DNA of 64,000 nt from the NCBI GenBank assembly GCA_024648695.1, contig JACAVV010000017.1:1-64000 (forward strand), given 5' to 3'. The notes beneath the pieces were generated by a model. That model searched no databases. It had not been told where the DNA came from and saw nothing but the letters and a program-made list of their open reading frames with translations. This DNA comes from Nitrospina sp. (GTDB taxonomy: Bacteria; Nitrospinota; Nitrospinia; Nitrospinales; JACRGP01). This document shows positions 18,201 to 62,940 of the stretch, in pieces (position 1 is the stretch's first letter; every line of letters starts with the position of its first letter). Made by a program: the position numbers and the translations under genes.

Positions 18201-19673
18201 ATGAGTTTTAAAGACCGTTCAGGAATCTTTTTCGCAATTCGTCCACTGGTCCTTCTGGGATACTTATGTCTTATGTTGGGAATGTTTGGGTTGTTGACTG
18301 TCATTCCTTTGGGAGTTTCTCTGGCATGGGGCACGCCTGAAAGTTCTCTGTACTATTTGGCCATCATCACAATTTCGTTGCTACTCGGGTGGTATGGGGT
18401 GTCTCTCACCAAAAATAGTAAGGTATATATCCAGCGTAACGAATCGCTTGCTCTGGTGGCCTTGGTATTTATTGTTTCATCGTTGATTCAATCGATCCCC
18501 ATCATGAGTGGTGGAATCCCATTTCTAGATGCCTGGTTTGAAGCTGTTTCAGGGGTTACCACCACGGGCCTTTCCACTCTGGAAAATTTGAATCAAAAGT
18601 CTCCAGCCTTTCTTTTCAGCCGTGGCTGGATGCAATGGGTTGGCGGACTGGGAATTATCGTCCTGGCTTTGGCTTTGGTATTTCAACCGGGGATCGTTAC
18701 CCGTCAATTGGGATTTGATTCGAATGAGGTTGAGGACGTGGTGGGTGGCACGCGGTCCCATGCAAGACGAATACTCTTAACCTATGCCTTGCTCACATTA
18801 GCGATCATGTTAGCCCTGATTTTGGCTGGAAGTGGAATTTGCGACTCTCTGGTTCATGCTATGGCGGCTCTGTCCACAGGAGGGTTTGCCAATCACGATG
18901 ACAGCCTTGCAAGCGTATCCTTTTGGGAACGCGTCATTATTCTGGGAGGTTGCCTGGCCGGAGCCATTTCGTTTAATCTTTATTACCGAAGACAATTCCG
19001 GGATTGGAACCAGATTTTCGGGGACAAACAGTTTTTGTTTCTGGTTGGAATGATCCTGTTTATGACGGCAATGCTTTTTTTAAGTATGACCCATTCAGAC
19101 ATCCTGGGTCTGGAAGAAAGGATCGAGCATTCTCTATGGATGGCGGTTTCGGCCCAAACCACTGCAGGTTTCGCAACAATTCCGCCCCAGGATATGGGGT
19201 TGCCTGCTTTGGGCCTTATGAGTGCAGCGATGTTTGTGGGAGGCGGGCTGGGTTCGACTGCAGGGGGTATTAAATTGCTTCGATTGATGCTTTTGTTGCG
19301 AGTTTTTCAACTTTATTTGCAACGTTTATCCTCATCACAACACGCGGATATTCCGGAACGGTTTATGGGGTCGCCCATCACGTCTATAGATATCCAAGGA
19401 GCGGTCGCGGTTGTTTTGACTTATCTGGGCACTCTTTTGATTTCCTGGATTATTTTTCTTCAATATGGCTATGACCCCCTACTATCCTTGTTCGAGGTGA
19501 GTTCCGCTCTGGGCACATCGGGACTTTCTGCAGGTCTCACAGGTCCCGACCTTGATCCTGTTCTCAAAGTAGTGCTTATCATCGATATGCTGATGGGGCG
19601 TACCGAGGGCATCGCTATTGTCATTTTATTGGTTCCGGGAAACTGGTTTGGAAAAAGGAGAAATCTGAAATGA
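18201..19673 (+). CDS. trkH: TrkH/KtrB-family potassium uptake membrane subunit
   Basis: This 490-residue polytopic protein is the ion-conducting subunit of a Trk-type K+ uptake system. The four pore loops that build the selectivity filter are visible as SGVTTTGLS, AALSTGGFA, SAQTTAGFA and SALGTSGLS. Hydrophobic helices fill the rest. The gene overlaps trkA by four bases (ATGA), so the two are translated together and TrkA is the cytoplasmic gating partner. An AAGG stretch precedes the ATG. With the Mrp operon and mscS next door, this part of the window deals with ion and osmotic balance. Confidence 0.93.
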   Translation: MSFKDRSGIFFAIRPLVLLGYLCLMLGMFGLLTVIPLGVSLAWGTPESSLYYLAIITISLLLGWYGVSLTKNSKVYIQRNESLALVALVFIVSSLIQSIPIMSGGIPFLDAWFEAVSGVTTTGLSTLENLNQKSPAFLFSRGWMQWVGGLGIIVLALALVFQPGIVTRQLGFDSNEVEDVVGGTRSHARRILLTYALLTLAIMLALILAGSGICDSLVHAMAALSTGGFANHDDSLASVSFWERVIILGGCLAGAISFNLYYRRQFRDWNQIFGDKQFLFLVGMILFMTAMLFLSMTHSDILGLEERIEHSLWMAVSAQTTAGFATIPPQDMGLPALGLMSAAMFVGGGLGSTAGGIKLLRLMLLLRVFQLYLQRLSSSQHADIPERFMGSPITSIDIQGAVAVVLTYLGTLLISWIIFLQYGYDPLLSLFEVSSALGTSGLSAGLTGPDLDPVLKVVLIIDMLMGRTEGIAIVILLVPGNWFGKRRNLK

Positions 19674-20347
19674 GAGCGGTATTTATTGGCGCCAGCACCC
19701 TCACCGTGACCACGGCTCGCCTGGCAATCGAAAAAGGACATGAGGTGGTGATCGTTGAGGTCAATCAGGAAAGAATCGATGAATTGAGTGAAGAACTGGA
19801 TTGCGGTTTCATTCATGGGGATGGGTCATTTCCTTCCATACTGGAAGAGGTCAGCCCGGAAAATACGGATTTCCTGTTTTGTCTTACCGACAATGATCAG
19901 GATAATATTATCGCTTCTCTGGTGGGACAAGAAATGGAATTTGATCGTGTAATTACACGTATTGAAAATTGTGATTTCGACAAGATTTGCAAACAGTTGA
20001 AGCTGGAGGAGGTGTTCCATCCCGATCAGCAAGTGGCTCATTCTCTGGTCGATATTATTGAAGGGAATAAGCGGGCGAGGAAATTGACTGAACTTCAGGG
20101 GGATTTATTGTTTTTCAAATTTCAGGTAATGGAAGACACACCCAAGAATGTGAAGGGCCTAGACCTCCCTGAAGATACACGGATGGTATGTATTTCAAGA
20201 GGAAAAGATGCCTATCTGCCGACGGAACAGGAGACGTTGCAGGAGGGGGATATTGTGACTTTGATCACCCGGGATCAACAGATAGATACGCTTTCTTCAA
20301 AATTCAAATTGCCCCATCCATCCGAATCCAAAAAAGAAGGAGAGTAA
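19670..20347 (+). CDS. trkA: TrkA/KtrA-like NAD-binding regulator of potassium uptake
   Basis: The 225 residues hold one RCK_N (Rossmann) domain and one RCK_C domain. That is the KtrA layout, half the size of E. coli TrkA. The Rossmann start MRAVFIGASTLTVTTARLA departs from the usual GxGxxG loop (GASTLT), so nucleotide affinity may differ. The acidic end of strand 2 is present (VVIVEVNQERID). The C-terminal domain (about 135-215) shows the EGDIVTLITRDQQI pattern. It is coupled to trkH by an ATGA overlap, with AAGGAG placed inside the end of trkH. Its own tail carries the AAGGAG for the next gene, mscS. Confidence 0.9.
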   Translation: MRAVFIGASTLTVTTARLAIEKGHEVVIVEVNQERIDELSEELDCGFIHGDGSFPSILEEVSPENTDFLFCLTDNDQDNIIASLVGQEMEFDRVITRIENCDFDKICKQLKLEEVFHPDQQVAHSLVDIIEGNKRARKLTELQGDLLFFKFQVMEDTPKNVKGLDLPEDTRMVCISRGKDAYLPTEQETLQEGDIVTLITRDQQIDTLSSKFKLPHPSESKKEGE

Positions 20348-20348
20348 C

Positions 20349-21296
20349 GTGGCTTTACAAGATTCCGATCCTGAAAAAAACGGAAGTGGGCAACTTGGAG
20401 GTTCACACGGAAACAACATCATTGAAGGCCCCGATTCCATTTCAGATGTAGCCGAGACGCTTCAAATTACTTTGCTCAATATATGGAAAAATTTTATTCA
20501 ACACACGCCTTACCTCATTGCTGGAATCCTGGTGCTTATCTTGACATGGATACTGGCATCCATTATATCCAAACTGGGGCATCGCTTGTTCCGATCACGA
20601 AATATACGAAGATCATTAGAAGATTTAATTGTTCGATTGATAACCATCGGTATCTGGTTTGGTGGATTGCTTTTGGCCGCTATGTTCTGGTTTCCTGGTC
20701 TTACTCCGGCAACGGCTTTGGGCGGACTCGGCATTGCTTCCATTGCTATTGGATTTGCTTTTCAGGATATTTTTGAAAACTTTTTTGCTGGAATCCTTTT
20801 GCTTTGGCGGTTTCCTTTTGAAAGTGGAGACTTTATTGAATGTAAGGACATAATGGGTCAAGTCGAATCGGTCGATGTTCGCATGACCCAGATCCGTTTG
20901 TTGACTGGAGAACTGGTTCTGGTTCCAAATTCCACCCTCTTCAAGAACCCCGTAAACGTTCTTACAAACAGGCCCTATAGGCGGGTCACCATAATAACTG
21001 GTGTGGCTTATGGGGAGGATGTGGAAAAATCGGTTGATGTCCTTCAAAAGGCTGTGGAAGGCTGTGATACTGTGGAATCGTCAAAACCCGTTGATGTTTA
21101 CCCAAAGGCTTTTGGTTCCAGTAGTGTTGATATTGAAGTGACATGGTGGCCTGGAAACAAGCCAGTCGATATTCGTAGATCCCGTGGAGAGGTTATAACG
21201 GCGGTTAAAAAGGCCCTGGAAGAAGCTGGTATCGAAATTCCGTTTCCCTATCGAACTCTTACATTCAAACAACCTCTTGTCATCAAAAAAAACTAG
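20349..21296 (+). CDS. MscS-family small-conductance mechanosensitive channel
   Basis: This 315-residue protein has an N-terminal soluble extension, three membrane helices and a cytoplasmic beta/alpha vestibule. The pore helix signature is clear (ALGGLGIASIAIGFAFQD, then IFENFFAGI at about 127-155), followed by the beta domain FIECKDIMGQVESVDVRMT. The start is GTG at 20349, one base after the trkA stop, with AAGGAGAG five bases upstream. It therefore belongs to the trkH-trkA unit. Such channels release osmolytes on hypo-osmotic shock; pairing with K+ uptake makes an osmotic-balance operon. It converges on the nuoM-like gene, with only 43 bases between the stops. Confidence 0.92.
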   Translation: MALQDSDPEKNGSGQLGGSHGNNIIEGPDSISDVAETLQITLLNIWKNFIQHTPYLIAGILVLILTWILASIISKLGHRLFRSRNIRRSLEDLIVRLITIGIWFGGLLLAAMFWFPGLTPATALGGLGIASIAIGFAFQDIFENFFAGILLLWRFPFESGDFIECKDIMGQVESVDVRMTQIRLLTGELVLVPNSTLFKNPVNVLTNRPYRRVTIITGVAYGEDVEKSVDVLQKAVEGCDTVESSKPVDVYPKAFGSSSVDIEVTWWPGNKPVDIRRSRGEVITAVKKALEEAGIEIPFPYRTLTFKQPLVIKKN

Positions 21297-21339: not shown

Positions 21340-22848
21340 TCAAGGCCCAAACTGAAGTTGAGACAATTCAGTAACTTCCGGCCCTATGGTTTGCTGGATA
21401 AGGTGGATCACACTGGCGTCCATTGTTTCCATCAAAGGTCCTGGATACAATCCGATACTCAATACGAGGACCCCCAATGGAATCAGCGTAGCCAATTCGC
21501 GTTTTGATAAATCAGGGAGCATTTTGGCGACTTCTGTCGCAGGCTCGCCTAACACCACTCTTTGGAGCATCCAAAGCATATACGCGGCGGCTAAAAGTAT
21601 TCCACCTATTGAAATAAGCACCATGGCAAGGCTGACATATGAGGTGCCTACCAGAACTAAAAATTCGCCAATGAAATTACAGGTGCCAGGCAACCCAAAG
21701 GCGGCGATTGAAAATAAAAAGAAAAACGCGACAAATTTTGGCATGGGTTTATGCAAGCCGCCGTAATCAGAAATTTCTCGACTGTGAGTACGGTCATACA
21801 ATATTCCAACAGAAATAAATAAAGCGGCTGTGGTGATTCCGTGATTAAACATTTGCAATACCGCTCCCTGAATTCCCTGGCTATTGAACACAAAAATCCC
21901 GAGCGTTACAAATCCCATATGGGACACTGAAGAATAGGCCACCAGCTTTTTTAGGTCTGACTGAGCCAGGGCTATGTATCCGCCATAGATAATGGCTATG
22001 ACCGATAACCACAAAATAGATGGTGCAAAATCTGCCGAAGCTTCGGGAAACATGGGCAAACAAAAACGCAAAAAACCATATCCGCCCATTTTCAATAGCA
22101 CCCCGGCCAGAAGCACACTGCCTGCCGTCGGGGCTTCGGAGTGCGCATCTGGGAGCCATGTATGAAAGGGGACCATCGGCATTTTTATGGCAAAAGCCAG
22201 AAAGAACGCCAGGAACAACCAGAACTGTTGGTTGGAAGTATATGTCTGTTCGGTTAACACCAGTAAATCGTATGTATGTCCTCCATTGAGATAAAGACCC
22301 AATATTCCCACCAGGAGAAGCAGGCTTCCTGTAAGGCTGTACAAAACGAATTTAAGGCCAGCGGCAATTCGATTCGGTCCGCCCCAGAGAATTATCATGA
22401 AATACATGGGAATCATGGTTACTTCCCACAACATGAAGAACAAGAAAAGATCCAGGGCGGTAAACACCACAACCATGGCACCTTCGACTAATAAAATCAG
22501 TGATAGATAGACTCGTACTCGTGTCTTAATTCCTGTCCACGAGCAAAGGACACAGAGTGGACAGAGAAGGGCTGTGAGTGCCACCAGGAGAATGCTGATG
22601 CCATCCACCCCAACCGCATATTGAATATTAAACGTGGACATCCATACCACGCGTTCCACGAATTGCATGTCTTGCTGGGCAAAATCAAAATTCCCCCAAA
22701 GGATCAGAGAAAGGAGAAGCTCCACAATTGTTACGCCAAAAGCAATCCATCGGATTTTTTCTTCTTCACGGACAAATGCCAGAATGATGATTCCCAAAAA
22801 AGGAATAGCTATCATCCAGCTAATCAGATGATCCATAAATAGAGCCAT
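21340..22848 (-). CDS. NuoM-like proton/cation-translocating membrane subunit
   Basis: This 502-residue protein has about 14 membrane helices and is the last gene of the dabA-mrp operon. The conserved charges of antiporter-like subunits are present: E142 in LWEVTMIPMYF and K222 in IKMPMVPFHTWLPDAH, matching the channel residues of complex I NuoM. AAGGAGAT lies eight bases before the ATG. No quinone-binding or peripheral complex I subunits are nearby, so this copy probably serves the Mrp/DabA complex, not respiratory complex I. NuoM-like and NuoL-like proteins in one Mrp operon, besides MrpD, would give the complex an extra ion channel. Confidence 0.88.
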   Translation of the reverse strand: MALFMDHLISWMIAIPFLGIIILAFVREEEKIRWIAFGVTIVELLLSLILWGNFDFAQQDMQFVERVVWMSTFNIQYAVGVDGISILLVALTALLCPLCVLCSWTGIKTRVRVYLSLILLVEGAMVVVFTALDLFLFFMLWEVTMIPMYFMIILWGGPNRIAAGLKFVLYSLTGSLLLLVGILGLYLNGGHTYDLLVLTEQTYTSNQQFWLFLAFFLAFAIKMPMVPFHTWLPDAHSEAPTAGSVLLAGVLLKMGGYGFLRFCLPMFPEASADFAPSILWLSVIAIIYGGYIALAQSDLKKLVAYSSVSHMGFVTLGIFVFNSQGIQGAVLQMFNHGITTAALFISVGILYDRTHSREISDYGGLHKPMPKFVAFFFLFSIAAFGLPGTCNFIGEFLVLVGTSYVSLAMVLISIGGILLAAAYMLWMLQRVVLGEPATEVAKMLPDLSKRELATLIPLGVLVLSIGLYPGPLMETMDASVIHLIQQTIGPEVTELSQLQFGP

Positions 22849-22973
22849 TTAAGAAATCTCCTTTCTGACGAAAGAAACGAACTCCTGGCTTTTCAAGTAT
22901 GCATTCGCAAAAAAAAGTAAGGTCATTCGGTATCCAAAGCCTTTTATTTCATAGAGGGTCTATCAGGAACCCA

Positions 22974-25001
22974 TTAAACCAGGACATACAAAAGTCCAGT
23001 CATAGCGACTAACCAAAATATCATTACCAATAATTGATGCTGGATAGTACGGGATTCTATCTCTTGCAGAAACTGCCCAGTAACATTTACCTGTCCCGCC
23101 AATTGTCCGACCTTCTGTTCCAACCAGCGGATATCAACAATTCGCCATAACCACCTGGCAAATTTTACAGAAAAAGTCCCGATAAGATGAATGAAATGAT
23201 CGATTATTTTTACATCTACAACTTGCCATAACCAGTGTGCAACTTTGATGGTTGGGGAAACCAGATAAGCATCATACATTTCATCAAAATACCCTTTGTT
23301 CCAAAACAAGATGTACAGGCGATGGTTTCTGGCATTTACTTTGGTTTCCTGATGTTGAGGTTGGTTGTGAGCCGAGTAGGCATAGAACCATCCCGCAACC
23401 GCTACGCCAAGAGAAACCACTAGCCAAAAAGGAAACCCGGGCTCGACGGCTCCGGCTCCTGATATTACCCCCGGAATGTTCAATGCCGGCGCAAGAAAGT
23501 CGGCGAACCATCGCCAAAACAGAGTCAATGCCCCTCCTAAAAATACAGTTGCCAGAAGCAGACTTGTTATAATGGAGCCATTTAAAAGTTGTGGCCGAAT
23601 GGTTTGCGTTTGCAGGCTGTGTTGTCCGGAAGCGGGCCAATAGGTTTTTGGACCCTGAACAAAAATCGAGGTGACGCCTTTAAAAAGGTATTGAGAAGCC
23701 ACAAATACGGTAATTAAACCAATGATTTTGAATCCGATAGCGGCAGAAGCAACGCCCGTGATCCCCCATAAATATTCATACGATCCGGAAAACAGAACGA
23801 ACGGTGGAATTAATGCCAACAGCAATGCACCGCCATATAAGGTCCCCATGCCTTCAGAGACTGGGTGTTGATGTTCTCCTCCATGTCCTCCTGGCCTCCC
23901 GGGTTCAACGGATCGCAATGCGTTACCGGTGGACAGAAAAAAGTACGCCTTGTAGCAACCGTGGGCCAGAAGATGAAAAATTGCCACCACAAACGCGCCC
24001 AGTCCACACGCCATAACCATGAACCCGATTTGACTGATTGTTGAATAAGCGAGTATCTTTTTGATGTCCGATTGCGTCAGGGATACTATTCCGGCAAATA
24101 TCGCGGTGACTGCTCCGATGAAAAAGATGAACGTCATTGCGAATGGAGAAAGAATAAGCAGGGGACTCAATCGCACTAATAAAAATGGACCCGCATTCAC
24201 CATAGTGGCCGCATGAATAAGCGCAGAGACCGGAGTGGGTGCTTCCATCGCAAAAGGCAACCACACGTGAAATGGCACTTGCGCTGACTTTCCCATAGCC
24301 CCCATAAAAAAGAAAAAAGGAATGAGCGTCACAGGATGAATTTGGAGTTCCAGTCCCATCCACCCCAGGATATTGATGGTATGGTCCTGCATGTTTTCAG
24401 CCTGTGCCAGAATTGTCTGGATGTCGAGTGTGCCAAAAGTATAAAAGGTCAAAATGATGCCAAAACTGAACCCGACATCTGCGAAAGCGTTCACGAGAAA
24501 AGCCTTGGTAGCGGCTCTGCAAGCTGAGGGCCGTTCTGCGGCATGGGAAATCAACAGATAGGAACAGATCCCCATCACTTCCCAACTGACCAGCAACATT
24601 AAGAGGTTGCCGCTCATGACCAGTAAAATCATGGAAAAAGTAAACAGGGAAATGACGGCAAAAAAACGGTTATATCGTGGCTCACCGATCATGTAACGGG
24701 AGGAATATACGTGCACCACACCACTGACGCCCGTGACCAGGAGTAAAAGCAGAACCGTCAGTTGATCAACGAACAAGTTTAAATCTATGGTCAGTGTGCC
24801 GGATTGAAAAAGCCGGTACAGAGAAAGGGTAAAAGGTCCATGCCTCAACACTTCAATGAAAGCGGCAACCGATAGCGCAAACGAAAGACCGATAGCAGGA
24901 ATCCCGATTCGGTGACCATTCTCACCCCAACGACGTCCTCCAAGAATTAGAACGATTGAAGCCAGAAGGGGGAGCAAAGGAATGAGAACAAAAAAAGCCA
25001 T
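22974..25001 (-). CDS. NuoL/MrpA-N-like antiporter subunit
   Basis: From the ATG at 25001 this is 675 residues. E141 lies in SWEVMGICSYLLI and K238 in GAMGKSAQVPFHVWLP, the two channel charges of NuoL and MrpA. The family usually has Asp after LP, but here it is Phe (LPFAMEAPTP). A long C-terminal section after the 14-helix core holds several amphipathic W-rich segments and a final membrane helix, as in the lateral arm of NuoL; short DabB proteins lack it. A histidine-rich loop, GGHGGEHQHP, is near residues 375-384. A TTG at 25013 would overlap mrpD by four bases, but GGGA placed five bases before 25001 favours the ATG. It may act as the N-terminal half of a split MrpA and as the DabB partner of DabA. 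Confidence 0.86.
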   Translation of the reverse strand: MAFFVLIPLLPLLASIVLILGGRRWGENGHRIGIPAIGLSFALSVAAFIEVLRHGPFTLSLYRLFQSGTLTIDLNLFVDQLTVLLLLLVTGVSGVVHVYSSRYMIGEPRYNRFFAVISLFTFSMILLVMSGNLLMLLVSWEVMGICSYLLISHAAERPSACRAATKAFLVNAFADVGFSFGIILTFYTFGTLDIQTILAQAENMQDHTINILGWMGLELQIHPVTLIPFFFFMGAMGKSAQVPFHVWLPFAMEAPTPVSALIHAATMVNAGPFLLVRLSPLLILSPFAMTFIFFIGAVTAIFAGIVSLTQSDIKKILAYSTISQIGFMVMACGLGAFVVAIFHLLAHGCYKAYFFLSTGNALRSVEPGRPGGHGGEHQHPVSEGMGTLYGGALLLALIPPFVLFSGSYEYLWGITGVASAAIGFKIIGLITVFVASQYLFKGVTSIFVQGPKTYWPASGQHSLQTQTIRPQLLNGSIITSLLLATVFLGGALTLFWRWFADFLAPALNIPGVISGAGAVEPGFPFWLVVSLGVAVAGWFYAYSAHNQPQHQETKVNARNHRLYILFWNKGYFDEMYDAYLVSPTIKVAHWLWQVVDVKIIDHFIHLIGTFSVKFARWLWRIVDIRWLEQKVGQLAGQVNVTGQFLQEIESRTIQHQLLVMIFWLVAMTGLLYVLV

Positions 25002-25009
25002 AAGTTCCC

Positions 25010-26479
25010 TCAAAGACGTGGTGGCATAGCCTGATCCAGCAATAGTTGAATAATGGGAGCACTGAATAATCCCAGAATTATTATAGCCGCAGAGGTGATT
25101 CCCAGAGTCAGTTTACTTGAGACGGGAATTTCAACAACCTGGACTTCCATCGGCGTTGTTCCTCTCCGGAAAATGGCTTCAAACAGTCTAACAAAATAGG
25201 CCAGCGTCAAGAGGGTGGAAACCACCACCGCCGCGACCGAAACATAATTGCCCGCTTCCAACGCCCCGAGAATAATGTACCATTTCCCAAAAAATCCCCC
25301 AGTCGGAGGCAGGCCAATCATGCCCAGGGCCACGACTACCAAAAACCCGATAAGCCAGGGCGCTTGTTTGCCGATGCGCCCCAAATCGTCAACTGTTCTG
25401 ACTCCAAATTGGCAATACGCCACCCCAGCTAAAAAAAACAAGGCGGCTTGCATAACGGCATCGTTCAGTAGATAAAAAACGCCTCCGGCAAAACCGGTTT
25501 GATTGCCTTGACTGATACCAATCAGAATGATGCCGATGTGCGAAATCCCTCCATAAGCAAACATCATTTTTATTTCCCGCTGGGCCAGGGCCAGAGTGGC
25601 GCCTATAACCGCCGCTAAAGCACCAAGAACGGCTACCATTACCAAGATCGGAATTTCATTTATAATAATTGTCGCATTCAAGACCCAATACATTATTCTG
25701 ATCCAGGCCAGTAGGGCTACTTTGGTGACGAGAGAGGCCAGAATAGGTGAAACGGAATCGGGAGCATAGGTGTAGGCCTCGGGCATCCAGGCATGAAATG
25801 GGACCAGAGCCATCTTGATCCCCAGACCAATAAACATGAAAAGCAATCCGCCAACTAATGCTTTAGAGTGTAGTAACAGCGGAAGTCTTTCGGCAAGATC
25901 ACTCATATTCAGTGTGCCACTCACTGCATAGAGATAACTCACCCCTAACAGGTAGAGGGAGGCTCCCAGGGTTCCCAAAACCAGATAGCGAAAGGCCGCA
26001 AACAACGCTCTTCCACCAGCAACACCAATAAGTGCGTAACTTGAGATAGCCGCAACTTCCAAAAACACGAACAGATTGAACAAATCCCTGGCGAAAGCAA
26101 TGCCGGTCAAGGCAGATATCAATAGCAAAACCAGAGTATAATAATGAACAATCCGACCTCCAAGAGCCTTTGGGGAAGTGGTTCTGGAAAACACCACACC
26201 CAGCAAAGCCAGGGCACTCAGTAATACCAGGATCACACTTGCTAATCCATCAGCCACCCACTCAATGCCCAGGGGCACAGACCACCCACTAAACACATAC
26301 CGTATTTCTCCATGATGAATGACGTTATAAAGATTGATGATAGAGACCAAAACCATGACCACAAGAGTGCCTACAGAAATTGGGTGGCTCCAATGCCGGT
26401 TTTTTAGACAAACCACAGGCATAGAAATAGCGGCAAACAAAGGGAGAAGGAAGATGATCGCGGGAAGTTGGTGACTCAT
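25010..26479 (-). CDS. mrpD: MrpD/MnhD-type Na+/H+ antiporter subunit
   Basis: This 489-residue polytopic protein belongs to the NuoN/MrpD antiporter-like family. The key charges are E141 (FLEVAAISSYALIG) and K222 (IKMALVPFHAWMPEAY). It overlaps mrpC by four bases (ATGA) at the start and ends just before the nuoL-like gene, so translation is coupled through the operon. It should form one of the ion half-channels of the membrane complex. Confidence 0.9.
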   Translation of the reverse strand: MSHQLPAIIFLLPLFAAISMPVVCLKNRHWSHPISVGTLVVMVLVSIINLYNVIHHGEIRYVFSGWSVPLGIEWVADGLASVILVLLSALALLGVVFSRTTSPKALGGRIVHYYTLVLLLISALTGIAFARDLFNLFVFLEVAAISSYALIGVAGGRALFAAFRYLVLGTLGASLYLLGVSYLYAVSGTLNMSDLAERLPLLLHSKALVGGLLFMFIGLGIKMALVPFHAWMPEAYTYAPDSVSPILASLVTKVALLAWIRIMYWVLNATIIINEIPILVMVAVLGALAAVIGATLALAQREIKMMFAYGGISHIGIILIGISQGNQTGFAGGVFYLLNDAVMQAALFFLAGVAYCQFGVRTVDDLGRIGKQAPWLIGFLVVVALGMIGLPPTGGFFGKWYIILGALEAGNYVSVAAVVVSTLLTLAYFVRLFEAIFRRGTTPMEVQVVEIPVSSKLTLGITSAAIIILGLFSAPIIQLLLDQAMPPRL

Positions 26480-26853
26480 TTTAGTTTTTCTAGAATATCT
26501 TGTTCGTCAAGGCTTCCATATTTTCGGTAGATCGCCGCGCACAGGGCCAATCCAACGCCCAGGGTTGCCACGCCAACCACAATGGCAGTCAGTGTCAAAA
26601 CATGCGGTAAGGGGTTGGCGTAATTTACCGCTTTTACCGGTTCCGTGGTGGACAAGAGCACAGGAATGGTTGCGCCCTTTTTGGCACTAATGGACACCAG
26701 GAAAAAAATCACGCTGGTTTGCATCAAATACATTCCAATGAGTTTCTTTACGAGATTGAATCGCGTCACCATAATATAAAATCCCCAAAGAAAAATGATG
26801 ACAAAGGTCAAAAAATTGGGTCGTTGAAAAACTGCGACAAATGCCTCAACCAT
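26476..26853 (-). CDS. mrpC: MrpC/MnhC (NuoK-like) subunit
   Basis: This 125-residue three-helix protein is homologous to NuoK. Its C-terminal half shows NPLPHVLTLTAIVVGVATLGVGLAL, the typical MrpC segment that ends its third helix. It overlaps mrpB by eight bases upstream and mrpD by four bases downstream. It is expected to sit between MrpA and MrpD and line the ion path. Confidence 0.9.
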   Translation of the reverse strand: MVEAFVAVFQRPNFLTFVIIFLWGFYIMVTRFNLVKKLIGMYLMQTSVIFFLVSISAKKGATIPVLLSTTEPVKAVNYANPLPHVLTLTAIVVGVATLGVGLALCAAIYRKYGSLDEQDILEKLK

Positions 26854-27298
26854 TTATTGAATCCTCGATAATCTCTTCAGCAGACAAGCTGAATACGATA
26901 GAAACGGCTGTTACCGCAACATCCACAGCCACACCAATTTGAGTGAGCACGATCCCCAATGATCTTCGAGACGCAGTTTCCAAACCTGGAATTTCCAAAT
27001 TCGCATAATTGAGAAACTCTCCGCCTCCAATCATACACAGGCCGCCCACTCCTGCGTAGATCAGCATACCGACTCCGTCACCATGCAGAATTTTTTTGGC
27101 AATTTGACTCCGGGAAGCGTCATGTCCGAAAATCAAAACCGACAGGATCATTCCCGTGCCCAGAATCACTCCACCCACAAACCCCCCTCCAGGTCCATAT
27201 TGACCAAAAAACAAAACATATAAACCGAATATTTGCACCACCGGAATGAGAAAGCGACCCAGGGTCTGTACGATAATGCTGTCATGAGGACGAATCAT
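26846..27298 (-). CDS. mrpB: MrpB/MnhB subunit
   Basis: The 150-residue membrane protein has the MnhB pattern: VQTLGRFLIPVVQIFGLYV, then a short GQYGPGGGFVGG loop, then more helices. The frame is open to a GTG-like start at 27328, but the ATG at 27298 has AGGAGG eight bases upstream and overlaps the preceding stop as ATGA, so it is preferred. It corresponds to the small structural subunit next to the MrpA C-terminal helices. Confidence 0.88.
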   Translation of the reverse strand: MIRPHDSIIVQTLGRFLIPVVQIFGLYVLFFGQYGPGGGFVGGVILGTGMILSVLIFGHDASRSQIAKKILHGDGVGMLIYAGVGGLCMIGGGEFLNYANLEIPGLETASRRSLGIVLTQIGVAVDVAVTAVSIVFSLSAEEIIEDSING

Positions 27299-27825
27299 TT
27301 TGAATGCCTCCTGAGTAGTAAAGCACAAGCTATACCCGCAGAAAAAATCACCACGGTTTCCACCATGGTATCAAGCGATCGATAGTCCATCAGTACCGAA
27401 GTCACAACATTGGGAGTGTGGGTCTCCTGGTAGCTCTGCTCCAGATAGATCGGTGAAATATGAACGCTCGCCGGAGAATTGGGATCCCCAAATTCAGGAA
27501 GATCTTTAGCGGCATAGAGTAAAAGAAGTCCCAATAAAGGGAAAACAATTAACACTGCCAGCGAAGGAGGAGGTCGCCTAAATCGAGTGTCCTTGGGTGC
27601 TGTACCGAAAAGTGTTAATAAAAACAGAACAGTAGCCAATCCCGCCCCTACGACGGCTTCCACGAAGGCGACATCCACAGCCCCGAGCCAGCCCCATACC
27701 ACCGACAGAAAAAAACTGTAGGTGCCCAGGAGCAAGACCGCACTCATTAAATCCTTTACCATAATGGCACCGGCGGCGGTAACAAGCAAAAGAAGGAGCA
27801 AAGGAATTTGCAATGAAAAGATCAT
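27295..27825 (-). CDS. MbhD/MbhE-like subunit, the detached C-terminal part of MrpA
   Basis: The 176 residues correspond to two domains that in classical MrpA form its C-terminal end: an MbhD/DUF4040 part (about 1-75; VVWGWLGAVDVAFVEAVVGAG) and an MbhE part (about 85-176). In seven-gene Mrp operons these are fused to the NuoL-like N-terminal part; here they are a separate gene placed between mrpG and mrpB. This split form resembles membrane-bound hydrogenase and some archaeal Mrp operons. It overlaps both neighbours by four bases. Confidence 0.82.
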   Translation of the reverse strand: MIFSLQIPLLLLLLVTAAGAIMVKDLMSAVLLLGTYSFFLSVVWGWLGAVDVAFVEAVVGAGLATVLFLLTLFGTAPKDTRFRRPPPSLAVLIVFPLLGLLLLYAAKDLPEFGDPNSPASVHISPIYLEQSYQETHTPNVVTSVLMDYRSLDTMVETVVIFSAGIACALLLRRHSK

Positions 27826-28121
27826 GAGTTTTCCTTTTTCCAGGGTTTTAAACCGGAGCGGAGAGCCGCGCGAATGGTGGCATGTGCAATGACTGGGTTA
27901 AGAATATACAGTAAGGCCAACACCACCATAATTTTGAGCATATTTTTACCAAAACCCTCATGCAAAGCGATTCCAACCAACATCAAAAAGGCTCCTAAGG
28001 AATCTGTTAATGACACCGCATGAGAACGGCTGAACACATCGGGCAATCGAATCACGCCAATGGCCGCTACAATGAGAAAAAATAATCCCGTTACAATAAA
28101 TATTATGGATAGAATTTCCAT
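27822..28121 (-). CDS. mrpG: MrpG/MnhG subunit
   Basis: This 99-residue, three-helix protein shows the MnhG signature: AAIGVIRLPDVFSRSHAVSLTDSLGAFLMLVG (residues about 21-52). It overlaps the next gene by four bases and follows mrpF after one base. MrpG with MrpE and MrpF forms the peripheral end of the Mrp complex. Confidence 0.9.
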   Translation of the reverse strand: MEILSIIFIVTGLFFLIVAAIGVIRLPDVFSRSHAVSLTDSLGAFLMLVGIALHEGFGKNMLKIMVVLALLYILNPVIAHATIRAALRSGLKPWKKENS

Positions 28122-28122
28122 T

Positions 28123-28389
28123 TTACGGCAGTCCCTTTTGTTCCAGATATTTGGCTACGGCAAGCGCTCCGACTAAATTCAGCAGGGCATATCCAGTTGA
28201 AATATCAATAAACATATCGACCCGTTCAAAATAGACTCCGATGACTACAAGTAAAATAATCGCTTTGGTGGAAATGCCGTTAAGACCCAGGACACGATCA
28301 AAAATTGTAGGGCCCTGAAGGACACGGTACAGGTACGCACCGATAAGAACAGTCAGCAGGACTAAAATGAAGAAAAAAAAGGTTGTCAT
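28123..28389 (-). CDS. mrpF: MrpF/MnhF subunit
   Basis: This 88-residue membrane protein has three predicted helices and the MrpF pattern GPTIFDRVLGLNGISTKAI (residues about 27-45). The start overlaps the mrpE stop by four bases. Order E-F-G is the usual one in Mrp operons. Confidence 0.9.
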   Translation of the reverse strand: MTTFFFFILVLLTVLIGAYLYRVLQGPTIFDRVLGLNGISTKAIILLVVIGVYFERVDMFIDISTGYALLNLVGALAVAKYLEQKGLP

Positions 28390-28892
28390 AAATCCGGCTT
28401 TTCGTCCTTGAAAATTTCTGCGATTCTGGATTCCATCTGTTTGCTTTCAATATCTTTGCTTAAATCCTTATCCATTGCGTGGACAATGAGCGTATTGCGA
28501 TAAACCTCTGCGGTAATAGTTCCAGGAGTTAAGGTAATGGAATTTCCGAAAAGAACCACTGCCGCATGGTGCCGCAGTTTTGACTCCACAGTTATCAACT
28601 GGGGATTAATGGGAAGGGCAGGATCCAAAATAAGCCTGGACATATGGATGCTACTTTCAATGATTTTATAAAAAAGCCAGGGAATGTAAAGAATGATTCT
28701 GAGCCACAAACGAAATTTCGGAACAAAAGGGGAATGACCCGAGTTGAGCCAGGCGACGACGAAGGAAAAAACAAGACCCAGCAAGAGATGAATCCATTCA
28801 AAGCTGGCGGATAACAATATCCAAAACAAAAACAGCGCCATGGCTTTTAAAAACATGAATTCTGATGAAATTGGTCTGGATCGAGTTGCCAT
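28386..28892 (-). CDS. mrpE: MrpE/MnhE subunit
   Basis: The 168-residue protein has an N-terminal helical hairpin and a C-terminal soluble domain containing FGNSITLTPGTITAEVYRN (residues about 115-133), the conserved MnhE segment. It is the first mrp gene after dabA (gap of 121 bases). That gap is the only non-overlapping junction of note before the nuoL-nuoM gap, so a second promoter there is possible. Confidence 0.9.
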   Translation of the reverse strand: MATRSRPISSEFMFLKAMALFLFWILLSASFEWIHLLLGLVFSFVVAWLNSGHSPFVPKFRLWLRIILYIPWLFYKIIESSIHMSRLILDPALPINPQLITVESKLRHHAAVVLFGNSITLTPGTITAEVYRNTLIVHAMDKDLSKDIESKQMESRIAEIFKDEKPDL

Positions 28893-29013
28893 AAAACTTT
28901 CAGGTGTGGGTTAAACTTTAGGGTATCAGTGTTGTTCGCTATTTCCTATTAAAAACCAGAGAGACCAGAGATGCAATATCTGTAAACCGGGTATCGTCCT
29001 GCCGGCACTCATT

Positions 29014-32000
29014 TTATGCCTTGGTAACATGAACCGGTTCCCATGTTGCGTCTGGATTGTATCGATGAAATTCAAACTTGTAGGGATCCAGTGCAATAAG
29101 ATTAAGCCATTGATTATGAAACAACTGTTGAAGGATTGAATGCTTTTGAATGATTGATGAGATGACATCCGGGGTCTGCTCGATAATAGCCAGAAGCCGC
29201 ATCGGTTCATGATAATGAATGTTCCCGTTATTGACGGTTTGTAAAGGAAACCCCATTTGCAAATCACTTTGGCTTCCCAGCATCATCCCGACTCCTCCAA
29301 CGACGTTGTGTAACACTTTACTGCCACTTCCATAATTCCATGGATCCACTGAAGAAAAATAATAACCCGTACTGATCCACTCGCCTACAATTAAGGGAGC
29401 GGTCATGATTTTTTCGAGAATAGCACCTTCAGGGTCAGCCACCGGATCATAAGAATGCAAGAAGACCCGACCTCCTAAATCCAATCCCTTGGTCAGTTTT
29501 CTCCGTCCAATGAGAAACGCACCATTGCCCGCCAGTCCCCATTCCGGGCGGGTGTTCGCCCAGTCGCAACTGCGCCCGTCTACATGGGCAAAAGCATGCT
29601 CCGGAGAAATCTCAGTCGGGGCACCCGGAATGCGATGGCACCGCTCAAGAGCCTGACTCGCACCTGCTTTTCCCAGATCCTTGTTCAAGGCTTCCAAATC
29701 TTCTTTATGCGAATCGGGAAGTTCTTCCAAATCGTAAAACTTGACCCGATCCGTTGTCGTGTTATGTTTCCCCGGCAGGAACCAGGTGTCCTTGGGAATG
29801 GTCAAACCCTTTTCTTTGAGGATGCTACGAACTTCAGGGTCGTTCGCCATCGCCGCAAAAACCCGCGCATTGGCATCCCCCGGCGCTCCACCGCAGGCCC
29901 CGCAATCCAGCGCCCCATAATAAGGATTGTTGTCCGTCTCACTCCCATGACCACAGAGACACACCAGGCGCGCGAAGTTTGTCGTAAGCCCCATGGCCCG
30001 CAAACCATTTTCTATAAATGTAGCCCGTTCCGAAAGGGAAAATCCACGGGAAAGATGGTCAGGAATTCCTTCTGCAACGACTTCCCCAACCTTGAGGTTT
30101 TGAGGATCTGGTGACGCGGAAATGGAGATCCGGGTCGGAACCCTATAAGTCAAGAACCTTTGGATCATGAAAGTCGTGGCCCTGAATGCTTTCTGGAGCA
30201 GGGTCTTGCCCACAAGGCCCAGACTAAAGAAAAAGCCCAATACGTCAATCACCATCATGGACCCCACAGGATGATGTTTCATATCGTGAAAAAGGTGGCT
30301 TCCCAGCAGGGACCAGCGAGTATTAGAGGAATATTTTTTCAATGCCGCCGTTTCGCCTGGCCGGGGTATTTCCGTCACCGCATGACCGGGAGTCAATAGC
30401 ACGGGACACAAATCGGCACGATGATCGCTATCGAAAGCCTGGTGGTTAATGGGAATACCAAAAAAGCCAGCGAACCCAAAGGTTTCATAATGGCCCTGGG
30501 CTTCGACATGGCGACGAAATGATTCGGAACGGACATCGATACAAAAAACCAGTTGGGCATGGGGACGCGTTTCCAAATCCGGTGCCTTATCGCGATGCGC
30601 TGAAATATTATTCAGGATTTCTTCTCGAAAGGAATCTTCGTAGGCTTCAATCCAAACCTTTCCATGCTGATCAGCAGGAAAAGAGTCCAGCCATTGCAAC
30701 ATCTTTCGGGCATCGGTGGGCATTAGATCGTGAACTTCTCCAGCAGATAATTCAAGAAATTGCGCCAAATGAAACAATCGCCAGGCTTGTCGACACTTCA
30801 ACTGTTTGGCCAGATCACCAGCTTGCTCATCATGTCCCATTTTGCGGCGATATTCCTCGGGGCTATCCTTCCAATAGGTCGTTAGGGAAGAAAGCGTCCC
30901 GTCAATTCCCCATTCTTTCTGACACCTGATTTGGGTCAATTCCACTTCATAAAATAAACGCACCGCCAGATACTGTGTGGTGTCAATGGGGTGTTTTTTT
31001 TGAGCATGATAGGTAGAGTGTTCTCCAAGCCACCGTATGTATCGCGTCCAGCCCGGCAATAATGATAATTGCCTTGAAAGATAACCTTTCCATTGCTCCT
31101 GGGGAATTTGCAGTTTCTGCAGGTTCAACTGGATCGCATCCTCTGGAGCTTCCGGAAGGTTATGGACTTTTTGGGCAAAATTTGAAATTCCAAGTAACTT
31201 ACACGAAAAATCATTCGATATCAGGTTCCGCCAGGCACGGTAGAAGCCTTTTTCCCGTTCAGGCATTTCCCAACCGGCCAAACCTTCATCCAGAAACGCC
31301 GAAACCCATTTGATGAGCTGATCATTGATTTGCTGGACCAAGCCACCATCAGTCAAACTATCGACCCAATCGCTAAGGGTTCGTTGAAGCGGCAAAGAAA
31401 CAGGTTCGAACGTTTGCTCATCCTGTCTTTCAGGTTTTTGAAATGAAGGCTGAAAATCCGTTAACCCGAAGGTGGCTAACACATACATCCATAATTTGGT
31501 CAGATATACTTCATCCGGATTCTCTTGATGCGATCCATATTCTTTAAAGGTTTTTTCAATAAGTTTTTTTCGTAGTTCCTCGGGTAAATCCTGACGAAAT
31601 TGTTTTGTCGCGCAACCACCGCTAAACTCCCAATCCAGGAGGGATAATGGCAATTCCTCGAAGCCAAAAAGCATGTGTAACTTCCAAACCTCTTCTGGAG
31701 TAATCCTTCGGCCTCCCACTTCAATGGAAGCTTGCCCATCAGGGCGCGGCCCAACCCTGGAAAAAGCATGCTCAAAACTTTCCTTGGTGATTCGTTCATT
31801 ACGATAGAATTGACGATACTCCTCATTGGCAAGATACCCGTTTCCACCAAGAAGGTCCTTGCCTTTTCGAACTGCCTGATCAAAGGGTAGATATTCCAGG
31901 CCATGAATCGGGTTTTGCGCGACCATGGTCCTCATGGGCCAAAACGGCGCAATGGGCTCACTGGCATCCAACACAATTTGCCGAATCAGATCACGATCTT

Positions 32001-32034
32001 CTGTGGAAAAGGGTTTTACTGAGGTAGTATTCAT
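29014..32034 (-). CDS. dabA: DabA-type (DUF2309) inorganic carbon uptake subunit
   Basis: This 1006-residue cytoplasmic protein has a beta-carbonic-anhydrase-like zinc site. C498 and D500 in FCIDVRSE and H696 (CGHG) and C711 (LDCGACGG) keep the spacing of the four zinc-site residues known in Halothiobacillus DabA (C351, D353, H524, C539 from memory). In that system DabA works with the NuoL-like DabB to hydrate CO2 to bicarbonate, driven by an ion gradient. DabA here is about 150-200 residues longer than typical DabA2. It is the promoter-proximal gene of an operon with a complete Mrp-type set and two further NuoL/M-like proteins, any of which could serve as DabB. The start ATG at 32034 has only a weak AGGA about 14 bases upstream. 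Confidence 0.92.
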   Translation of the reverse strand: MNTTSVKPFSTEDRDLIRQIVLDASEPIAPFWPMRTMVAQNPIHGLEYLPFDQAVRKGKDLLGGNGYLANEEYRQFYRNERITKESFEHAFSRVGPRPDGQASIEVGGRRITPEEVWKLHMLFGFEELPLSLLDWEFSGGCATKQFRQDLPEELRKKLIEKTFKEYGSHQENPDEVYLTKLWMYVLATFGLTDFQPSFQKPERQDEQTFEPVSLPLQRTLSDWVDSLTDGGLVQQINDQLIKWVSAFLDEGLAGWEMPEREKGFYRAWRNLISNDFSCKLLGISNFAQKVHNLPEAPEDAIQLNLQKLQIPQEQWKGYLSRQLSLLPGWTRYIRWLGEHSTYHAQKKHPIDTTQYLAVRLFYEVELTQIRCQKEWGIDGTLSSLTTYWKDSPEEYRRKMGHDEQAGDLAKQLKCRQAWRLFHLAQFLELSAGEVHDLMPTDARKMLQWLDSFPADQHGKVWIEAYEDSFREEILNNISAHRDKAPDLETRPHAQLVFCIDVRSESFRRHVEAQGHYETFGFAGFFGIPINHQAFDSDHRADLCPVLLTPGHAVTEIPRPGETAALKKYSSNTRWSLLGSHLFHDMKHHPVGSMMVIDVLGFFFSLGLVGKTLLQKAFRATTFMIQRFLTYRVPTRISISASPDPQNLKVGEVVAEGIPDHLSRGFSLSERATFIENGLRAMGLTTNFARLVCLCGHGSETDNNPYYGALDCGACGGAPGDANARVFAAMANDPEVRSILKEKGLTIPKDTWFLPGKHNTTTDRVKFYDLEELPDSHKEDLEALNKDLGKAGASQALERCHRIPGAPTEISPEHAFAHVDGRSCDWANTRPEWGLAGNGAFLIGRRKLTKGLDLGGRVFLHSYDPVADPEGAILEKIMTAPLIVGEWISTGYYFSSVDPWNYGSGSKVLHNVVGGVGMMLGSQSDLQMGFPLQTVNNGNIHYHEPMRLLAIIEQTPDVISSIIQKHSILQQLFHNQWLNLIALDPYKFEFHRYNPDATWEPVHVTKA

Positions 32035-34451: not shown

Positions 34452-37400
34452 ATGTCCAGTCAAGGTGACAAGTTCTTACGAGGATGCAACCGCATTTTCT
34501 ATTTAATATTTCTTGTTTTACTTGTCTGGATGGTACTAATCCTTCCAGCTCAAGCCAATTCCATGGGTCCTGAATTCCGTTCCGGAGAAGGTTCCCTTCA
34601 GCGAATATCTGATACGCTTTGGATCTTAAAGCAAGACTCGAATGATTTAGTTCTGGAGTTTTCTTCATTTGAACTGGAAGCAGAACATACTCTTCAAATC
34701 GAGCCCGCCTCTTCGTCTGCGACCACACATATCAAATTTTCCGACAATGACCCTATCGAGATAAATGGGACCATCACTACCACAGGAAACCTGAAACTCT
34801 CCGCAACAAAAATTAGACATAAAGGCAAGTTGATCGCGTCCGGTGGAAGCATCGAATTGAGTGCAGATTCGGTAGTCCTTGATGGCGGGGGAGTGGATGT
34901 TTCTCACGAAAGCCAACCCGGAGGCACGATAAAAATCGACGCCAAGCGATGGGTGAGCTTAGGCGGGAGGGTCAATGCTTCCGGGTCCATAGGTGGACGC
35001 GTCGAAGTGGGGACTGGAGGACTCAACATCGCGGGCTCAGTTTTGGCCATGGGAAGTGATGGTCCCGGTGGAAGCATCGATTTAAAAGTCCGTCTCAAAT
35101 CCTGGGAAAACACCTCGGCTTATTTAGATGTGTCCGGGACTACAGGTGGAAGCATCCGCCATATCACCGATCAGCAGATTACTACCTCAGGAAAATATCT
35201 GGCATTGGGTGAAGATGGTATCGGTGGTCATATCGATATCACCGCACCGGCATTGAAATTCCTTTCGACCCAAATCAACGCCTCAGGCCAAACTGGTGGG
35301 GGGCAAATTCGTCTGGGTGGGGAATTGCAGGGCGGAAAAAATCTCGATATCGACGAACTTCCAAACGCCGAACTATTGGCGATGACTGACGGCACCCGAA
35401 TTACTGCGGACACCTTGGGTTTGGAAGGTTCCGGTGGAACCATCATCGTCTGGTCCGAGCGCAAGACCACAGTTCTCGGAACATTATCTGCCCGTCCCGG
35501 TAAGGACTCTGGCAAAGGCGGTTTCGTCGAAACTTCCTCAACGGATCGTTTGCGTTTTGCCGGTAAAACATTCACAGGACGTGGAGACCGTTCCGGCGAA
35601 TTCCTCATGGACCCCAAAAATGGCACCATAGACGATTCAAGCGTTATTAACCAACAAGCCATCATCATCGGCGACGGTTACGATTCCCTAAATATTGGGT
35701 CACAGACCCTTACAGATATCGATCAATTTGGCTACTCGCTTTCACTGGATGGGTTGCGTCTTGCCGTCGGAGCTAATTTTGATGGTGGTTCTGGTGGCAC
35801 CTGCACCACTAAATGTGGTGCGGTCTATCTCTACACTTTTACTGACAACTCTTTTGGTAGGGGAAGTCTTCAGGCGATTATTGGTGATGGTTATACTGGC
35901 GATAAAAATATTAACTTGACCCTAGAGAATAATGATGAATTTGGCAGGTCAGTTTCTCTTGATGGGACGCGCCTTGCTGTGGGAGCTATTGGAGAAGATG
36001 GTTCCAGCGGCACTTGCAAGAGTGAATGTGGGGCTGTTTACTTGTATACGTTTACGGATACTGAGTTCAGCAATAATGGCAGTGCCACTGATGGTACAGG
36101 TGCCCTTCAAGCCATCATCGGTGACGGATATACAGGCGGCAAAAATGTTAATTTAACCCTGGTTAATGGCGACAGGTTTGGCCAATCGGTTTCTCTGGAT
36201 GGACCACGTCTTGCCGTTGGAGCTCATGGAGATGATGGTTCCAGCGGCACCTGCACGGGTAGTTGTGGGGCGGTATATTTATACACATTCACGGACCTGG
36301 CATTCAGTAATAATGGTGACGCCACCGATGGTACAGGCGCCCTTCAAGCTATCATCGGAGACGGTTATACGGGCGGGAAGAACGTCAGTGTTACATTAGA
36401 AAATGCCGATCAAATTGGCATCTCTGTTTCTTTGGATGGGACACGCCTTGCTATTGGCGCCCCTGGAGATGATGGCTCCAATGGTACCTGTACAAGCGAC
36501 TGCGGAGCGGTGTACCTGTACACCTTCACTGATTCAGCCTTCACTGGTGGAGATCTCAAGGCAGTCATTGGCGATGGATATAACATCCGGTCAAAGGACA
36601 TCAATATTACGCTGGGTAATAATGATGCTTTTGGCACCTCAGTATCCCTGGACAACACCCGTTTGGCTATTGGGGCTAGATGGGATGATGGTTCCAGCGG
36701 CACCTGCACGAGTGACTGTGGTGGGGTGTATCTCTATACTTTTACAGATCTGGAATTCAGTAATGATGGAAATGCAACTGATGGTTCGGGTGCTCTTCAA
36801 GCCATCATCGGCGATGGTTATACAGGTGGTAAAAATGTCGGGATTACCCTGGATAATAGCGATTTTTTTGGCAATTCAGTCTCTCTGGACGGAATGCGTC
36901 TGGCTATTGGGGCTAGAGGGGATGATGGTTCCAACGGTACTTGTACCATTAGTTGCGGGGCAGTGTATTTGTACACTTTCACGGATAAGGTTTTCAGTGG
37001 AGGTGGTTTAGAATTCATTATTGGCGACGGATATACAGGCGGCAAAAATGTTAGTGTTACCCTGGATAATTCTGATCTATTCGGAACCTCGGTTTCCCTT
37101 GATGGGACGCGCTTGGCTGTTGGGGTTAGGGGAGATGATGGTTCCAGCGGCACCTGCACGGGTAGTTGCGGGGCAGTTTACTTGTACACCTTCACAAATG
37201 CCTCTTTTGGTAGCGGCACTCTGGAGGCGATCATCGGTGATGGATATACAGGCGGCAAGAACGTCAGTGTGACCCTGGGTACTTCCGATTTTTTTGGCAA
37301 TTCGGTCTCTCTGGACGGGACGCGTCTTGCAGTCGGGGCTTTTACAGATGATGGTTCCAGTGGCACCTGCACCGATGATTGTGGTGCAGTGTATTTGTAT

Positions 37401-61129: not shown

Positions 61130-61962
61130 GCTGAGTTGGGGGCTTCTTTTTTCTTCTTGATCAAGTAGGTGATCAGGCAGATTATAAACACCATTCCGAA
61201 CGATCCCACAATAGCAGAACCTGTCGGTAAATCGAAACCATAAGATAAGAACATCCCACTCACGCAAGTGACGATTCCAAGCCCCCCACCAAAAAGAAAT
61301 TGTCCTTTAAAAGTGTCCAGAAAAAAGAAACTGCAAACCGCAGGAACGATTAGAAGTGTGAATATGAGATAGATGCCTGCAGTTTTCACAAAAAACACGA
61401 TAACCGTTCCCAAAATCAGATAGAACAGAAAATCCCATCCCTGCTGGTTTTTTCCGGTAACAGAGGTTTCTTTGTAGCTTTGCGAGAGTTGCAAAAACTT
61501 GCTGTGATACCTTCGAAAAAATACTAGCGTCAACAGCGCAATTCCGGTAGAGACAAATAATTCGTTCCAACTCATCCAAAGAATCGAACCGTTCAGCAAT
61601 GTCTTGATATGCTCTGCCCCATGATAGTGATGGCTGACAAATAAAATAGCAACAGCAGACCCCACAATGTAAACAATACCAATGATTGCTTCCTGAGGTA
61701 CCCGCGATTGCAATTTGCGGGCAAAGGAGAAAAATCCTGCTCCTGAAAGGATGCATACGAATGAAATAAGTTGTGCCCGAAAGCTTTCTTCAGGAAGGTC
61801 CCAAACGAAGGCAACGGTGCTACCCAAAGCGGCAAGTTGAGCCAGGGCCAAATCCACAAATATGATTTCCCGCTTTAGAACGTGGATTCCGAAATAGGTG
61901 AAGATCAACGGCAGAAGGAGGCAGGCCCCCAAAGGGGCCGCCATAAAGGTAAAGTCAATCAT
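61126..61962 (-). CDS. zinc/manganese-type ABC transporter permease
   Basis: This 278-residue integral membrane protein has about eight helices and belongs to the ABC-3 (ZnuB/TroC/MntB) family: HVLKREIIFVDLALAQLAALG (about 28-48) and a later EAIIGIVYIVGSA (about 115-127). It couples to an ATPase not seen in the window. Its ATG overlaps the stop of the upstream binding-protein gene (ATGA), so the two are translationally coupled. Confidence 0.88.
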   Translation of the reverse strand: MIDFTFMAAPLGACLLLPLIFTYFGIHVLKREIIFVDLALAQLAALGSTVAFVWDLPEESFRAQLISFVCILSGAGFFSFARKLQSRVPQEAIIGIVYIVGSAVAILFVSHHYHGAEHIKTLLNGSILWMSWNELFVSTGIALLTLVFFRRYHSKFLQLSQSYKETSVTGKNQQGWDFLFYLILGTVIVFFVKTAGIYLIFTLLIVPAVCSFFFLDTFKGQFLFGGGLGIVTCVSGMFLSYGFDLPTGSAIVGSFGMVFIICLITYLIKKKKEAPNSA

Positions 61963-62900: not shown

Positions 62901-62940
62901 GATTGTTGTTCCTTCCTGATCTGATTTGCTTGCTAATGGA

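Follow-up and report, generated by a model that had tools for sequence, protein, structure and literature searches.

The closest described relatives of the locus analyzed here are DAB systems, Mrp-type complexes and predicted DUF2309-NuoL operons. DAB2 of Halothiobacillus neapolitanus (DabA2-DabB2, PDB ID: 9rd0) is the only DAB with a solved structure and is reported to be H+-coupled with no need for Na+ (PMC13144422). Within DAB2, the position of NuoL K399/D400 is taken by DabA2 E444, an essential residue, as both E444A and E444Q abolish activity (PMC13144422). DabB2 has lost the equivalent of NuoL E144, and putting this residue back halves growth yield (PMC13144422). COG3002-COG1009 (DUF2309-NuoL) operons were predicted by the COGNAT authors to encode an energy-converting complex, with clade C additionally containing NuoM and a SulP permease; the available portion of that paper describes no Mrp E/F/G/B/C/D set in these operons, which sets them apart from the present locus (PMC5700660). 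Candidatus Nitrospira alkalitolerans encodes a group-3 Mrp with NuoL/NuoM-like genes, bicA, nhaB and motB, which was read as a Na+/H+ antiporter in a report whose main text does not mention DabA/DUF2309 (PMC7784846). No published link of DabA to an Mrp operon was found in a literature search that covered few subscription papers and preprints.

We analyzed a window of 64,000 nucleotides (positions 1-64,000 of contig JACAVV010000017.1, Nitrospina sp., GCA_024648695.1) from a Nitrospinota genome of 4.2 Mb and 97% completeness. It contains a ten-gene operon that encodes a DabA of the same fold family as DabA2, with the same zinc site and an acid in the finger, and a NuoL-like protein (here called opL) that lacks NuoL K399/D400 just as DabB2 does. 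Unlike in DAB2, the finger acid is Asp and not Glu, opL keeps E144 and has a long lateral helix, and eight further Mrp/NuoM genes are part of the operon. The combination of DabA with a NuoL-like partner is shared with MpsAB(C) of Staphylococcus and with PII-linked DAB cassettes of Nitrospinota/Nitrospirota (L003 type), and PII (L051) or MpsC (L053, L058) is found near some relatives of the operon; those systems, however, consist of two to four genes with DabB first, and the window genome has one of them separately. Mrp antiporters (PDB ID: 7qru, 6z16, 7d3u) and the Mrp modules of MBH and MBS (PDB ID: 6cfw, 6u8y) resemble the locus in subunits E, F, G, MbhD/E, B, C and D, in the cation-path carboxylates and in the MbhD-type Glu position, but here a DabB-like subunit takes the place of MrpA-N, NuoM is extra and DabA is part of the operon.

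Gene content and organization of the operon

The ten genes run along the minus strand from 32034 down to 21340 in the order dabA-mrpE-F-G-mbhDE-B-C-D, followed by opL and a NuoM-like gene (Table 1). An earlier note on this DNA had described this operon, and its genes, strand and positions were confirmed, with 10/10 products falling into the expected Pfam families. Three products are Proton_antipo_M proteins according to Pfam (MrpD, opL and the NuoM-like subunit), the last of which clusters with complex I NuoM in a phylogenetic tree. MrpA is represented by two pieces, the NuoL-like gene corresponding to its N-terminal half and mbhDE to its C-terminal half, so that NuoM alone is surplus to an Mrp set. 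Thus, of the two extra NuoL/M-like subunits that the note had counted, NuoM stands and the NuoL-like one is better described as a DabB-like protein in the MrpA-N position. Similarly, the note's complete split Mrp holds for subunits B, C, D, E, F and G and the MrpA C-terminal domain, but not for an MrpA N-terminal domain with its TM12 Lys, which is found in 5/5 MrpAs and is missing from opL. Neither peripheral redox subunits nor NuoH are found beside the L/M genes in the operon. Separate antiporter-subunit clusters are present on contigs 10 and 17, so there is no need to assign the L/M genes of the operon to complex I, and replacement of complex I was rejected as a role.

Table 1 Annotated features of the ten-gene operon. 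Coordinates refer to the window.
Feature	Coordinates	Strand	Basis
DabA, 1006 aa, predicted beta-CA-like vectorial CO2 hydratase subunit	29014..32034	-	PF10070, 878.9 bits
DabA finger helices	30151..30282	-	Profile alignment to 9rd0_A
MrpE	28386..28892	-	PF01899, 118.6 bits
MrpF	28123..28389	-	PF04066, 53.4 bits
MrpG	27822..28121	-	PF03334; TIGR01300 above its cut-off
MbhD+MbhE fusion, equivalent of MrpA C-terminal domain	27295..27825	-	PF13244, PF20501, NF009159 above cut-off
MrpB	26846..27328	-	PF04039, 79 bits
MrpC (NuoK-like)	26476..26853	-	PF00420, 80 bits; best NCBIfam models are MrpC
MrpD, E141 and K222 kept	25010..26479	-	PF00361, 192 bits; best NCBIfam models are MrpD
opL, DabB-like/NuoL-like subunit, 679 aa	22974..25013	-	Rooted tree, residue counts, PF00361
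opL C-terminal lateral helix and final TM anchor	22977..23291	-	Alignment, repeat positions
NuoM-like subunit, 502 aa	21340..22848	-	TIGR01972, 614.8 bits (cut-off 263.8)

The gene junctions measure +121 nt (dabA-E), -4 (E-F), +1 (F-G), -4 (G-DE), -34 (DE-B), -8 (B-C), -4 (C-D), -4 (D-L) and +125 (L-M). Overlap of nearly all genes, another claim of the note, is therefore found at six of the nine junctions but not at the two ends. mrpB probably starts at the ATG at about 27298 and not at the TTG, in which case its overlap with mbhDE shrinks to about -4 nt. No terminator-like site was detected in the dabA-mrpE (121 nt) or nuoL-nuoM (125 nt) gap, a search for riboswitches and known RNAs near the operon returned none, and a promoter scan gave no more matches than expected by chance. 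Elsewhere in the window, TrkH-TrkA-MscS genes converge on the operon end (18201-21296), two giant ORFs lie past its upstream end (34452-50558, 5368 aa; 50950-58479, 2509 aa) and a ZnuA/ABC-3 zinc-type uptake pair is found further off (61126-63140).

DabA active site and finger

DabA belongs to PF10070 and contains a Cys-His-Cys zinc site (C498, H696 and C711) together with an Asp-Arg dyad (D500-R502), which align with C351, H524, C539, D353 and R355 of DabA2. These five positions are invariant in 29/29 aligned DabAs, ranging from the Mrp-linked clade through plasmid-borne DabAs of Staphylococcus, haloarchaea, Pantoea and roseobacters, and the numbering of C498, D500, H696 and C711 given in the note is exact. 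The sole solved relative found by profile was DabA2 (9rd0_A, E 1e-220), and in this profile alignment D597 (codon 30244-30246) occupies the position of DAB2 E444. At this position, the 18 DabAs from the Mrp-linked clade all have Asp, the unaccompanied DabA of genome G165 described below among them, and the other 11 all have Glu. Judged by these alignments, the finger acid required of a DAB is retained as Asp597, and the Glu-to-Asp change is specific to the Mrp-linked clade. This clade is monophyletic and a neighbor of the long canonical DabAs in the DabA tree. The predicted structure of DabA was of poor quality (pLDDT 51).

opL shares features with both DabB and NuoL

An antiporter-subunit tree rooted on outgroup NuoM, NuoN and MrpD groups opL with DabB (99/94), apart from complex I NuoL and MrpA. 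The placement varies with the region aligned, and with the N-terminal core alone opL falls between NuoL/MrpA and DabB, with an opL+NuoL clade not rejected (p-AU 0.20). An origin of opL as a recent duplicate of the local DabB was discarded, given that the data reject (p-AU 0.007) its placement inside the long-DabB clade. The PF00361 match of opL ends at profile position 224 of 294, much like that of DabB.

At the residue level, opL lacks NuoL K399/D400 and keeps E145, D179 and K242. The TM12 Lys (K399) is present in 3/3 NuoL, 5/5 MrpA and 1/25 DabB sequences and in 0/18 opL; the K399/D400 pair is likewise absent from all 18 opL but found in 3/3 NuoL and 5/5 MrpA, and none of the 25 DabBs has an Asp or Glu at the D400 position. 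The interface Glu (NuoL E144), through which antiporter subunits are coupled to each other, is found in 18/18 opL, 5/5 MrpA and 2/3 NuoL versus 0/25 DabB. For the K399 and E144 positions, a subset was viewed first and the full set was counted after consulting PMC13144422. Without K399 and with E144, opL would offer a vacancy fit for the DabA finger and at the same time the interface Glu of a subunit that has antiporter neighbors. The locus hence resembles a DAB in having a partner without the TM12 Lys/Asp, but has neither the two-gene dabB-dabA layout nor the loss of E144 in the partner. Since the finger Asp and the opL signatures trace to one clade, each represents a single evolutionary event and not many.

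Based on the alignment, opL has a NuoL-like lateral helix and a terminal TM anchor, both of which are absent from ordinary DabB. The helix of the window opL carries two WLW repeats 27 residues apart, and its 27-residue tandem repeats, of ARWLWRVVDVRGID type, occur in none to four copies depending on the species. A helix of 27 residues is about 40 angstrom long, which may come close to the width of a single antiporter subunit. The predicted opL structure (pLDDT 69) matched complex I NuoL, with DabB2 absent among the 50 matches listed. By phylogeny and residue content, the NuoL-like gene is best assigned as a DabB-like subunit in the MrpA-N position and not as an extra complex I subunit, meaning that the ten-gene set includes its own DabB equivalent.

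Conservation of the operon in Nitrospinota and Nitrospirota

The neighborhood check suggested in the earlier note, a search for DUF2309 beside mrpE in other genomes, was carried out in Nitrospinota and Nitrospirota and, outside these two phyla, in plasmids, and DabA-MrpE adjacency was found to recur in both phyla. MrpE is encoded directly downstream of DabA on the same strand at 22/31 loci in Nitrospinota (77 genomes) and at 11/53 loci in Nitrospirota (296 genomes), which excludes chance association. The order DabA-E-F-G-DE-B-C-D-L-M is intact in all 19 public loci with enough sequence, from records titled Nitrospinota and also Nitrospirales, and the same order is seen in more distant Nitrospirota loci (L050-L052, L054-L056) with DabA 39-56% identical. 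The distance between the dabA and mrpE HMM matches is larger in several Nitrospirota (353-1655 nt). All six plasmid DabA loci inspected have a DabB-type partner only. The flanking genes of the window (TrkHA, MscS, porin) are absent beside the operon in relatives, and a conserved linkage to K+ transport via TrkHA was accordingly dropped.

Several loci show rearrangements. A complete canonical DAB-PII cassette is inserted, in inverted orientation, between dabA and mrpE in L057 and L059 (= L026), and both DAB systems are located side by side in L006/L036. DabA of L011 and L016 (= L041, L048) is 77-79% identical to that of the window and mrpE-D (window 25010-28892) only 43-60%, with MrpD branching outside all other DabA-linked MrpDs; the mrpE-D block was apparently exchanged for a divergent one, with DabA and L/M left unchanged. 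dabA or nuoM appears frame-split or partial in L028, L022 and L078, as a result of either assembly errors or decay.

Mrp operons without DabA and a genome with a split operon

DabA-less Mrp operons from the same phyla (L043-L046, L079-L102) are of other types, with subunits mostly 22-61% identical, and contain either extra MrpD/NuoM-like subunits at roughly 23-33% identity or a true MrpA. Conversely, every examined Mrp operon of the L/M type is found in a genome with a DabA of the Mrp-linked clade or adjoins a DabA fragment, the latter in L078 of genome G311, a locus that looks degraded (partial dabA, mrpE, F, G and nuoM). An L/M-type operon without adjoining DabA was seen once, in G165, where a solitary dabA (L060) is located about 260 kb from a solitary mrpE-to-nuoM operon (L077). 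The G165 DabA belongs to the same clade (66% identical) and lacks an adjacent partner gene. Scanning G165 for antiporter subunits gave only two complex I-like sets and the Mrp/L/M operon, indicating that no free DabB is available to this DabA; G261 and G080 likewise showed none. The note had named DabA working with a DabB encoded elsewhere as a refutation of its reading; no candidate for such a partner was seen in these three genomes, but in the window genome the canonical DAB on another contig might provide one.

Residues of the Mrp cation path were taken from PMC9568556 and PMC7419157. MbhD E56, MbhE D152/E156, MrpD E141/K222, MrpF D31 and MrpB F50 are kept in 23/23 operons. MrpF D38 is replaced by Asn (Ala in two) and the MrpC His is absent, as is the case in most DabA-less split Mrps. 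The Na+ path was discarded as a discriminator, given that these residues fail to separate DabA-linked from DabA-less split Mrps. Drive by Na+, which the note had raised as a possibility, would be compatible with the kept carboxylates, while DAB2 is reported to be coupled to H+.

Proposed complex and alternative explanations

With moderate confidence, we propose on the basis of sequence comparisons that the operon encodes a DAB variant in which DabA docks on the DabB-like subunit ending an Mrp/complex I-like arm, driving one-way CO2 hydration. The coupling of DabA to such an arm, as put forward in the earlier note, is well supported by the conserved synteny, the split-operon genome and the residue signatures, but the NuoL-like protein in it is not an extra subunit. 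Building on the gene content, its conserved order, the zinc site, the residue complementarity of DabA and opL and the affinity of opL to DabB, we infer how such a complex may assemble and its possible stoichiometry, direction, coupling ion and activity. The ten genes would form one membrane complex, an energy-coupled CO2 hydratase of the DAB type, with DabA on the cytoplasmic side and its two-helix finger inserted into opL. Asp597 would stand in for the missing TM12 Lys/Asp of opL and thereby complete a periplasmic half-channel. Laterally, the retained Glu145/Asp179/Lys242 network of opL and its extended helix would connect it to NuoM, MrpD and the module of small Mrp subunits. Ions moving down the membrane gradient through this array would then switch DabA to its hydrating state, resulting in the one-way conversion of CO2 to cytoplasmic HCO3-. 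A larger number of antiporter-like subunits for each DabA may mean more ions per CO2, or a cation/proton exchange that balances the proton made, and hence a steeper HCO3- accumulation than in a two-subunit DAB, supplying an autotroph without RuBisCO.

It is unlikely that DabA and opL instead constitute an ordinary two-subunit DAB, with the Mrp set and NuoM forming a separate antiporter that is merely co-transcribed. DAB2 does work with DabA and DabB alone (PMC13144422) and the 121- and 125-nt gaps flank parts of the operon; however, the Mrp set would then be without an MrpA-N subunit, and opL keeps the inter-subunit Glu lost from DabB, has a long lateral helix and TM anchor not found there and is encoded inside the array between mrpD and nuoM, away from dabA. 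We consider it quite unlikely that the operon represents an Mrp Na+/H+ antiporter similar to group 3 that exports Na+ in support of a Na+/HCO3- symporter (BicA), with DabA as an accessory or an unrelated passenger. This would follow the published reading of the Ca. Nitrospira alkalitolerans locus (PMC7784846), which is very likely of the same operon type as L055/L056, two loci with similar flanks, and would fit the kept cation-path carboxylates. However, DabA is part of the conserved unit and the flanks vary by genome, opL lacks the TM12 Lys found in all NuoL and MrpA examined, and DabA-less Mrp operons from the same phyla use other D/M-type or true MrpA subunits. A reversed complex, in which the energy of CO2 hydration (or HCO3- dehydration) pumps ions via the arm, is very improbable, as CO2 hydration gives little free energy unless CO2 is high. 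The COGNAT authors did propose that exergonic chemistry leads to ion export, with more membrane subunits exporting more ions (PMC5700660), but for DAB2 the reported driving force is the protonmotive force, acting toward hydration (PMC13144422).

If the ten-subunit hydratase proposed here is correct, it would be a larger version of a CO2-uptake machine formerly known only with two subunits, and it would mean that an Mrp/complex I membrane arm can couple to a hydration reaction instead of electron transfer. It would further provide a natural test of long-range coupling, in the form of one docking site with and without an antiporter array, and allow a direct test of whether DAB systems use H+ or Na+. 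It is possible, if doubtful, that opL-DabA is an intermediate between NuoL-type subunits and stand-alone DabAB and that such a complex was pared down to give the two-subunit DAB. A non-redox enzyme, the CO2 hydratase, would then fill the energy-coupling site of a machine of the complex I/Mrp superfamily, and the multi-subunit form would survive in nitrite-oxidizer lineages.

Carbon context of the operon

The operon is a candidate for inorganic carbon uptake in Nitrospinota and Nitrospirota, two phyla with major nitrite oxidizers among their members. A role in carbon metabolism is supported by the predicted DabA active site and by SulP (L053, L055, L058), MpsC (L053, L058) and PII (after NuoM in L051) genes beside related operons. 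A search of the window genome for a RuBisCO large subunit did not find one, and a weak match to the citrate domain of ATP-citrate lyase (60 bits) is compatible with, though no proof of, a reductive TCA cycle. The genome further encodes three SulP-family proteins and, on contig 8, a second DabA in a canonical cassette (a 564-aa DabB-like protein, a membrane protein of 409 aa that matches no Pfam family, a DabA of 1085 aa and PII), which means that carbon uptake may not depend chiefly on the operon. A 409-aa Pfam-less membrane protein is encoded between dabB and dabA in canonical DAB cassettes (L003, 9218-10447; L061-L063, L066) and, in some Nitrospirota, appears to be fused to DabB (870-880 aa).
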